NCBI GenBank assembly: GCA_902554325.1
Contig: CACDOH010000004.1
Coordinates: 1-64,000, forward strand
DNA length: 64,000 bases
Source of the DNA: an uncultured Pelagibacteraceae bacterium
GTDB lineage: Bacteria > Pseudomonadota > Alphaproteobacteria > Pelagibacterales > AG-422-B15
Reading direction: 5' to 3'
This document shows positions 15,847-18,867 of this stretch, in pieces. The translations under genes were made by a program, and so were the position numbers. The notes under the pieces are model-generated. The model had not been told where the DNA came from. It was given only the letters and a program-made list of their open reading frames with translations, and did not search any database. How positions within the stretch are numbered: the first letter of the stretch is position 1; each line of letters opens with the position of its first letter.

Positions 15847-15939
15847 TAAGATTATTTATCTCATTGTTTTATATGAAGTTTAATTAGACTAATGTATTAT
15901 TATTGTAAAATACATTAAATTTTAATAAATAGTAAAATT

Positions 15940-16332
15940 ATGAATGATATTAAGCAGTTTTTAAGATCTAATGCTTTGAGACCAACAAAGCAGAGAATAG
16001 TCATAGCAGGCTACTTATTCGATGGTACCGATAAGCATGTAACTGCTGAAAGCTTATCTACGGAGCTTGCTAAAAGAAAGCACATAATATCACTGGCAAC
16101 AATTTATAATACACTTCACGATTTTTATGAAAATGGACTTTTGAAAAAACTTACTCTTAGCGCTGATAGAGTCTATTTTGATACAAACACAGATGATCAT
16201 CATCATTTTTATTCTGAAAAGGAGCAATTCCTAATTGATATTAATAAGAACATAAAAGTAAATGGCTTGCCTAAGACTCCAAAAAATAAAAAGATTAATA
16301 AGATCGAAGTTATTGTACACCTCGATAAGTAA
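15940..16332 (+). CDS. irr: Fur-family iron response regulator, Irr type
   Basis: RPTKQRIVIAGYLFDGTDKHVTAESL, LATIYNTLHDFYENGLLK, TDDHHHFY; divergent from fabA as in many Alphaproteobacteria; lacks the C-terminal CxxC zinc site. Confidence 0.85.
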   Translation: MNDIKQFLRSNALRPTKQRIVIAGYLFDGTDKHVTAESLSTELAKRKHIISLATIYNTLHDFYENGLLKKLTLSADRVYFDTNTDDHHHFYSEKEQFLIDINKNIKVNGLPKTPKNKKINKIEVIVHLDK

Positions 16333-16350
16333 TTGATAATAGTTATCAAT
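16332..16350. promoter_or_regulatory. Perfect palindrome ATTGATAATAGTTATCAAT, contains TGA-N9-TCA (Iron-Rhodo-box-like)
   Basis: 8-3-8 inverted repeat; TGA 16334-16336 and TCA 16346-16348. Confidence 0.5.
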
Positions 16351-16355
16351 ATCAG

Positions 16356-16372
16356 TTTAGAATGATTCTAAA
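16356..16372. promoter_or_regulatory. Irr-box / ICE-like palindrome TTTAGAATGATTCTAAA
   Basis: Perfect 8-1-8 palindrome matching the described Irr-box pattern TTTAGAA-N3-TTCTAAA, 3 nt upstream of a perfect TTGACA. Confidence 0.75.
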
Positions 16373-16375
16373 GTG

Positions 16376-16405
16376 TTGACAAAATTTGAATCAACCTTAT
16401 ATAAA
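16376..16405 (+). promoter_or_regulatory. Rubrerythrin promoter (TTGACA-N18-TATAAA)
   Basis: TTGACA 16376-16381; TATAAA 16400-16405. Confidence 0.6.
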
Positions 16406-16442
16406 AAATAATTATTAATTAATTATTGTTGAGGAAGAAAAT

Positions 16443-16862
16443 ATGACTGAATTAAAAGAAAGTAAAACACTTGATAATTTGAAAGCAGCATTTGCTGGTG
16501 AAAGTCAAGCAAACAGAAGATATTTATATTTTGCTCAAAAGGCAGACGTTGAAGGCCACAATGATGTAGCTGCAGTATTTAGATCTACTGCCGAAGGTGA
16601 AACTGGCCATGCTCATGGTCATTTAGAATTCATGGAAGAAGTTGGCGATCCAGCGACTGGTGAACCAATAGGATCAACAGAAGATAATCTAAAAGCTGCA
16701 ATTGCAGGTGAAACGCATGAGTACACAGATATGTACCCTGGGATGGCAAAGACAGCACGTGAAGAAGGTTTTGACGAAATTGCCGACTGGTTTGAAACGT
16801 TAGCAAAAGCTGAAAAATCTCACGCAGGTAAATTCCAAAAAACACTAGACTCAATCGATTAA
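16443..16862 (+). CDS. Rubrerythrin-family diiron protein without C-terminal rubredoxin domain
   Basis: [68 protein letters not shown]. Confidence 0.93.
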
Positions 16863-16901: not shown

Positions 16902-18242
16902 ATGGATTATAAAAAAGAAGGAAGCCTCGCTGCACCTACTAGGGACCTAGTAGATTGGAATTCTGAAAGCTACACCAACGAAGAAGAGTTAAACGCCGAG
17001 ATGAAAAGGCAGTTTGAGGTTTGTCATAGTTGTAGAAGATGTTTTAACCTCTGTGATAGCTTTCCGACGTTATTTGATTTGATTGATGACTCTCCAAATG
17101 AATCAGTTGATGATCTCACCAAGAAAGATTTCGAAGACATTACAGACAAATGTACACTATGTGACATGTGTTTCATGACTAAATGTCCATATGTTCCACC
17201 ACATGAGTTTAACATTGATTTTCCTCACCTTATGTTGCGTTATAGAACTTTTCAGGATAAGCAAAATAAGTTGCCAAAAATTCCTAAAGAGTTGGCTAAA
17301 ATAGATCGCAACGCTAATCTTGCCAAAATTTCTCCTACTCTTGCAAACTGGAGTTCCGATAAAAAAAATAGTCTAACACGGCGTCCACTGGAGATGATAA
17401 GTGGCATTGATAAAGATGCTGAGTTACCTAAGTTCGAAAAAAAGACATTCCATGAATTATCAGAGAAAATTGATATTAAAGTAAACACAAATGCACCTGC
17501 CTTCGGAAGAAAAGTCGCAATTTACTCAACGTGCTACGTAAATTTCAATAATTCAAAGGTTGGAATCGCTGCTCAAAAAGTACTAAACCATAATGGTGTT
17601 GAAACTATTTCTTCATATCCCGGATGCTGCGGCATGCCACATTTAGAGCAAGCTCAGCATGAAAAAGTAATTAAACAATCAGAAATTGTTTCTGAAGAAC
17701 TCTGTAGCTTGATAGACCGGGGATATCAAATCGTTACTTTAACTGCAAGTTGTGGGCTCATGCTTAAATTTGAGTGGCCACTTCTCAATCCTAATAACGA
17801 AAATGTTAAAAAACTATCAAAAAATGTTTTTGATATTGATGAGTTTATCGTTGATATAAGTAAAAAAGAGGGATTAGTTGAAGGTCTCAATTCTCTTGAT
17901 GGAGGAGTGACTGTCCACAATGCGTGTCACGCAAGAGCTCAGAACATGGGTAATAAAGCTATGGAGATGTTAAAGAAATTACCTGATACAAAAGTTGATG
18001 TTGTAGAAAAGTGCGCAGGGCATGGAGGAACTTTTGGAGTTATGAAGAAAACTCGAAAGTCCGCAAATAAGTACGGCAAAGCAACAGCTAGACAAATTAA
18101 AAATAAGAAAAATAAGTTAATGGTTTCAGATTGCCCACTTGCTTGCAAGCACCTTAATGAGTTTTTAAACGAAGACAAAGACTCTAATTATATTTCAATG
18201 CATCCAATAGAAGTAGTAGCTCAAGCGTATAATCTCTCTTGA
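16902..18242 (+). CDS. GlpC/heterodisulfide-reductase-like Fe-S protein (two ferredoxin-like cysteine clusters plus two CCG-type domains)
   Basis: CHSCRRCFNLC, CTLCDMCFMTKCP, GCCGMPHLEQ, CAGHGGTFG. Confidence 0.85.
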   Translation: MDYKKEGSLAAPTRDLVDWNSESYTNEEELNAEMKRQFEVCHSCRRCFNLCDSFPTLFDLIDDSPNESVDDLTKKDFEDITDKCTLCDMCFMTKCPYVPPHEFNIDFPHLMLRYRTFQDKQNKLPKIPKELAKIDRNANLAKISPTLANWSSDKKNSLTRRPLEMISGIDKDAELPKFEKKTFHELSEKIDIKVNTNAPAFGRKVAIYSTCYVNFNNSKVGIAAQKVLNHNGVETISSYPGCCGMPHLEQAQHEKVIKQSEIVSEELCSLIDRGYQIVTLTASCGLMLKFEWPLLNPNNENVKKLSKNVFDIDEFIVDISKKEGLVEGLNSLDGGVTVHNACHARAQNMGNKAMEMLKKLPDTKVDVVEKCAGHGGTFGVMKKTRKSANKYGKATARQIKNKKNKLMVSDCPLACKHLNEFLNEDKDSNYISMHPIEVVAQAYNLS

Positions 18243-18273: not shown

Positions 18274-18867
18274 ATGACTATAGAAAATAGAAAAATTGAA
18301 CCCTCTGATTTGCTTGAATATAGCACTTATGCGAAAGAAAGAAGAAGTATAAGAAAAGAGGTAGTTCAGATGAAAAAAAATAGGAGAGTGGAACTCGGAC
18401 CACATTCTACGTTTTATTTCGAAAACTTCTTTACTATGAAAGCTCAAATTCAAGAGATGCTTTACATAGAAAAGGGTGGCGATGAACAACTCAAGGATGA
18501 GTTAGAGGCTTATAATCCCCTAGTACCACAAGGCTCAGAACTTGTAGCAACTTATATGTTTGAAATTGACAACCCAAATACAAGAAAAAAAGTTTTATCG
18601 TCCTTAGGAAACGTTGAAAATAAGCTATTCATAAGTATTAATGGGACAAAACTATACGCGACACCTGAAGAAGATGTAGATCGTACAGATAATTCAGGAA
18701 AAACTTCATCTGTTCATTTTATTCATTTTAAATTTAGTGATAAGCAAATTGAGGAATTTAAAAACTCAAGCAGCAGAATTGAAATTGGTACAGACCACGA
18801 TAACTATCTCCATAGTACTGTGCTGTCTAAAGAAGTGAAAGAGGCCTTGGCAAAAGACTTTAGGTAA
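18274..18867 (+). CDS. DUF3501-family protein
   Basis: Recognised from sequence (RRSIRKEVVQMKKNRRVELGPHSTFYFENFFTMKAQIQEMLYIEKGG) and position after rubrerythrin/Fe-S protein. Confidence 0.75.
   Translation: MTIENRKIEPSDLLEYSTYAKERRSIRKEVVQMKKNRRVELGPHSTFYFENFFTMKAQIQEMLYIEKGGDEQLKDELEAYNPLVPQGSELVATYMFEIDNPNTRKKVLSSLGNVENKLFISINGTKLYATPEEDVDRTDNSGKTSSVHFIHFKFSDKQIEEFKNSSSRIEIGTDHDNYLHSTVLSKEVKEALAKDFR

Follow-up and report, generated by a model that had tools for sequence, protein, structure and literature searches.

Predicted Fur and Irr boxes at a fixed distance ahead of a rubrerythrin operon in SAR11 bacteria

The promoter of a peroxide-defence operon in a SAR11-like (Pelagibacterales) bacterium probably contains a composite operator in which a Fur box and an Irr box (ICE) stand before the rubrerythrin-RFO-DUF3501 genes, with Irr repressing and Fur acting beside it; both the binding and the direction of expression are inferred. 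We consider it highly probable that the two regulators of this phase-locked element are Fur and Irr, since an ICE stands next to a Fur-type box, Fur is encoded, RirA was not found in this genome or in more complete relatives, and the IscR of the relatives has a different site. That Irr acts as a repressor at this promoter we rate at even odds. The window, the whole stretch of DNA analysed here, is 64 kb of contig C4 in an assembly of 1.17 Mb that is 79% complete; AG-900-K14, AG-896-A02 and AG-422-B15 are names among its near relatives.

Within the window irr is followed by the genes for rubrerythrin (rbr), a CCG-domain Fe-S oxidoreductase (RFO) and a DUF3501 protein (Table 1). The last three make up an aerobic-type gene trio that has already been described (PMC5114695); that paper never mentions Irr, whereas the neighborhood studied here adds irr and a conserved ICE. 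The Irr protein retains the HHH motif and, in an alignment with HTCC1062 Irr and the Fur of the window genome, has the recognition helix IYNTL. It contains no cysteine and hence lacks the N-terminal Cys-Pro heme regulatory motif (HRM) of the B. japonicum type. Fur is encoded on contig C14 of the same genome (G000; PF01475, 130 bits) and retains the Tyr-Arg pair of its recognition helix, whereas the alignment puts Tyr-Asn at the matching place in Irr. On the other side of irr, between it and a divergent fabA-like gene, AATGTATT-N10-AATACATT (15891-15916) is found genus-wide and partly in other genera; it may serve the two genes as an operator or as a common promoter.

Table 1. Genes and predicted regulatory elements of the irr-rbr region, in window coordinates
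Feature	Position	Strand	Description
irr	15940..16332	+	130 aa; Fur-family heme-responsive regulator; NCBIfam IrrA 150.2 bits, cut-off 150
First palindrome, ATTGATAATAGTTATCAAT	16332..16350		Predicted Fur box, 7-1-7, one mismatch to TGATAATNATTATCA
Spacer, ATCAG	16351..16355		5 nt; length same in 33/33 family genomes; box starts 23 bp apart
Second palindrome, TTTAGAATGATTCTAAA	16356..16372		Predicted Irr box (ICE); exact palindrome; kept in the family, with more changes across the class
-35 element, TTGACA	16376..16381	+	Begins 3 nt past the ICE
-10 element, TATATA	16398..16403	+	16-nt spacer; preferred over N18-TATAAA; N16-TATATN recurs in L036, L038, L052, L054 and L206
rbr (rubrerythrin)	16443..16862	+	Aerobic type, 139 aa, without rubredoxin domain; Pfam PF02915, 105.7 bits
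RFO	16902..18242	+	CCG-domain Fe-S oxidoreductase, GlpC-like; Pfam PF02754; trio member (PMC5114695)
DUF3501 gene	18274..18867	+	Third gene of the trio; Pfam PF12007, 212 bits

The original prediction described a perfect palindrome between irr and rubrerythrin, a second perfect palindrome 5 nt further on, and then TTGACA-N18-TATAAA. The first lies where it was placed, sharing one base with the irr stop codon (16330-16332), but it is imperfect, with 8 of 9 pairs matching and T/G as the innermost pair; the second is exact and follows ATCAG as described. The hexamer TATAAA is literally there (16400-16405), but the relatives fit a different -10 element: because TTGACA-N16-TATATN recurs in distant relatives, we prefer TATATA after 16 nt. 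A generic promoter scan did not list the rbr promoter, so that its assignment rests on conservation. The transcript is predicted to start near 16410, and the first palindrome would be centered at about -69 and the ICE at about -46, abutting the -35 element.

The block is strikingly constant among relatives. The family set comprises 33 genomes with an irr-rbr junction, our own included, from three genera and with Irr identity down to 61%. Across them, 44 to 50 of the 50 bases of the operator block are identical to the window, while identity at the four-fold degenerate positions in the genes irr, rbr and RFO falls to about 40% in the more distant family genomes; judged by these alignments, the block is under strong selection. 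A start-to-start distance of 23 bp between the boxes and the arrangement ICE-N3-TTGAC occur in all 33, and in 16 of them one Fur half-site reads TTCTCAA, not TTATCAA. Poor conservation at orthologous loci had been named among the grounds for giving up the original prediction; instead, both boxes and their spacing are conserved throughout the family set.

The boxes are also rare. The genome-wide scan suggested earlier finds the exact ICE TTTAGAATGATTCTAAA once in the 1.17-Mb assembly, as one of two sites with at most one mismatch, and three sites that depart from the Fur consensus at no more than one position, which include the first palindrome and the best of which precedes fbpA. The number of matches with at most two mismatches expected in the window is 0.44 and 0.34 for the two motifs, and the genome-wide counts together with the conservation rule out a chance origin of the boxes. 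A Fur-like match at C5:33559 falls within a coding region and was discarded as an operator. A strict form of the composite pattern had zero matches in 384 other genomes across the Alphaproteobacteria, so the tight Fur-plus-Irr form looks restricted to the SAR11 family of the window genome. Looser tandem pairs, 19 bp apart, are present in L111, L128, L140 and L155 and may be analogues of the composite. In L039 and L040, from another genus of the family, irr is followed by an exact ICE before a 61-aa ORF, MIK(E/K)ALIKKLEGQVAVA..., in place of rbr; L039 also has a Fur-type box 23 bp from the ICE.

The second palindrome is a perfect ICE that is predicted to be read by Irr. It matches TTTAGAANNNTTCTAAA exactly and lies near the promoter, it adjoins a gene for a true Irr by the IrrA model (150.2 bits, just over the cut-off of 150), and it is conserved at the orthologous promoters. 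The earlier assignment of this palindrome to Irr is thus supported, and so is the prediction that rubrerythrin and its operon are under iron/heme control. A survey of rubrerythrin loci in named genomes, 80 in all, extends this arrangement to the class: irr lies directly upstream of rubrerythrin in 50, and 43 of these 50 irr-rbr loci of the Alphaproteobacteria have a usable ICE (at most 4 mismatches). A -35 hexamer (at most one mismatch) starts 3, 4 or 5 nt past the ICE in 34 of the 43, compared to a mean of 0.7 and a maximum of 6 in shuffled sequence. The rbr loci of Novosphingobium and other sphingomonads, which lack irr, have TTGCGAATNATTCGCAA instead, presumably an alphaproteobacterial Fur box. 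TTTAGA-N5-TCTAAA-like palindromes lie upstream of rbr without irr at L118, L147, L148 and L151, and some of these loci are labelled gamma- or betaproteobacterial. Elsewhere in the window genome, the promoter of a 1-Cys peroxiredoxin (L056 1501-1517; G000 C2:2722) has a one-mismatch ICE overlapping TATAAT, which is kept in 9 of the 10 genomes of the genus with this gene and has two mismatches in the tenth; Irr may act on it, or it may be no more than a -10 element.

The first palindrome fits a Fur box, which would be read by Fur. It has the 7-1-7 structure of TGATAATNATTATCA, with one mismatch in the window and none in L087, and the motif also stands before other iron genes: 29 genomes have a conserved TATTGATAATCATT(A/C)TCAATAA upstream of fbpA (ferric-iron binding protein), with an ICE-like half-site downstream, and a one-mismatch match precedes iscR in one sister-family genome. 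The likeness to the classical Fur box therefore covers the palindrome sequence and its place before the ferric-iron uptake gene; the classical box lies over the promoter, whereas that of the window lies upstream of it and beside an ICE. At the fbpA promoter (G000 C21; L060, L175-L204), the half-ICE near the ribosome-binding site, ATCATTCTAAA, is conserved along with the Fur-type box, and in one clade an AGAATGA...TCATTCT hairpin is also possible.

The original prediction had linked this palindrome to RirA through the Iron-Rhodo box, an assignment that we now consider very unlikely. The palindrome does contain TGA-N9-TCA, it resembles the 19-bp palindrome with TGA...TCA ends of that system (Rhodobacter IscR, PMC4618611), and an Rrf2 protein is present in 12 of 12 more complete relatives. 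However, this protein, the sole one above the cut-off in each of them, is a multi-cysteine IscR encoded in a cysE-iscR-suf operon, and the iscR-suf promoters of the family have TTGACTAAATTAGTNGG-type sites that look like the type-1 IscR box of E. coli and differ from the palindrome, whose motif finds a best match with 4 to 6 mismatches there. No RirA-type gene was found in the incomplete assembly of our genome or in the 12 relatives, and these genomes yielded no Rhodobacter-type IscR as a reader. The proposed search for rirA and iscR thus succeeded for iscR alone and in the relatives alone: the window's own assembly, 79% complete, has no Rrf2/IscR protein above the cut-off, probably as a result of incompleteness, and a weak Rrf2 match in it proved to be a GntR-type regulator beside phn genes. 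Moreover, the full match over 17-19 bp is to the Fur consensus, which the palindrome has in common with the fbpA box. The regulator content and the iscR promoter motif hence lead us to reject the RirA/Iron-Rhodo reading and to retain the predicted Fur box.

Could Irr alone read both palindromes as a tandem pair? Tandem ICEs 31-32 bp apart exist at rbr of the sister family and in L100, but the boxes considered here are 23 and not 31 bp apart, and nearly every half-site of the first departs from an ICE at two positions, while the box as such matches that of fbpA; we regard this reading as improbable. Little speaks, too, for the first palindrome as a part of the 3' end of irr (an attenuator, a terminator or an mRNA-stability hairpin) unrelated to the rbr promoter. 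The one-base overlap with the irr stop codon and the RNA hairpin that can be drawn would suit such an element, but the hairpin is weak (-3.4 kcal/mol) and has no T run, most genomes in which irr is not followed by rbr lack the palindrome behind irr, and where it is present its distance to the ICE and the -35 element is invariant. We therefore discarded a terminator or attenuator at this place, and give the 3'-end reading as a whole a very small chance beside the Fur box.

The sister SAR11 genomes inform the direction of Irr action. We take one of them, G058, to be Ca. P. ubique HTCC1062; its genes run irr-rbr-RFO-DUF3501, an ICE stands 3 nt ahead of the -35 element, and a Fur box was not found at its rbr promoter. 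In the sister family, a second ICE-like site lies at exactly +31 bp in seven rbr promoters, where it overlaps the -10 element, and the irr promoter there has an ICE of its own, placed after the -10 element and before the start codon. In 18 sister SAR11 genomes without rbr at this place (L044-L051, L053, L055, L209, L210, L212, L214, L216-L218 and L222), the gene next after irr is katG, encoding catalase-peroxidase, and at nearly all of these promoters an ICE overlaps the -35/-10 spacer and the -10 element. Because ICEs are found at the rbr, katG and irr promoters of the sister genomes, they appear to mark the iron-rich genes of peroxide defence around irr, and in many cases they lie where a bound protein would be expected to block the polymerase. 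Rubrerythrin and katG look interchangeable in a slot predicted to be governed by Irr.

The original prediction held activation to be as possible as repression. We favor repression by Irr because the corresponding slot in the sister genomes holds either katG, with ICEs overlapping the -10 element, or rbr, in some cases with a second ICE at the -10 element. In both Bradyrhizobium and R. sphaeroides, Irr is known to repress mbfA, a rubrerythrin-like gene (PMC3413700). The mbfA system (blr7895 / RSP_0850; Bradyrhizobium, Rhodobacter) resembles the window in Irr, the ICE, a rubrerythrin-domain target and the theme of iron and peroxide (PMC3413700). However, mbfA encodes a membrane-bound ferritin and its ICE lies over the transcript start, whereas the window has a soluble aerobic-type rubrerythrin operon with an ICE that abuts the -35 element and, at a constant 23 bp upstream of this ICE, a Fur box.

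Activation deserves a hearing, and we judge it possible but unlikely. Heme-free Irr beside the -35 element would recruit RNA polymerase at low iron, and Fe-Fur would block or gate the promoter in iron-replete cells. The window ICE stops short of the -35 hexamer, and a fixed position directly before this hexamer would suit an activator too; the locking of the ICE 3-5 nt before the -35 element in 34 of the 43 class loci is the rigidity expected of a contact between an activator and the polymerase. According to a review, Irr activates or represses depending on the position of the ICE (PMC7762939). In the one expression data set considered, from Ca. P. ubique HTCC1062, rbr rises 1.57-fold under iron limitation (PMC2864753), a result that agrees better with activation. 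This is the opposite of simple low-iron repression, though the effect is small, and it comes from a promoter with an ICE but without a Fur box; in R. sphaeroides, mbfA likewise goes up by about 1.5-fold although it is repressed by Irr (PMC3413700). Against activation stand the ICEs over the -10 element or the transcript start at katG, at the second rbr site and at irr itself, which is a repressor arrangement. Likewise, R. sphaeroides ccpA, with a similar distance from box to start (about 40 nt), is slightly higher without Irr (PMC3413700), and an iron-rich operon product would be odd to induce when iron is short.

We hypothesize that under iron or heme shortage heme-free Irr, the product of the gene just upstream, would occupy the ICE beside the -35 element and hold the iron-rich peroxide-defence operon down. 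Irr is peroxide-labile in other species. When heme is plentiful, or when peroxide destroys Irr, the regulator would leave the DNA and release the operon. In iron-replete cells, iron-loaded Fur bound to the upstream palindrome would displace Irr or further tune the promoter. It is conceivable, though we hold it tentatively, that the element is a phase-locked switch with two sensors, in which Fe-Fur (iron plentiful) and heme-free Irr (iron short) compete or cooperate over the fixed 23 bp, and the cell computes its status for iron, heme and peroxide at one peroxide-defence operon.

That Irr controls rubrerythrin-type genes is already known. In those portions of the literature that were searched, we did not find a Fur box locked to an ICE at a fixed distance; an earlier prediction of an ICE at SAR11 rbr is possible. 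Regulators are very few in SAR11 bacteria, and large parts of the ocean are iron-limited. The conserved predicted Fur-Irr element and the slot next to irr that holds rbr or katG, with ICEs in either case, offer a testable account of how peroxide defence is tied to iron and heme. The geometry ICE-N3-(-35), which recurs across the class, raises the question of whether an Irr dimer acts there as an activator or a repressor. The predicted sites suggest that two iron signals are combined at one promoter in very streamlined cells.
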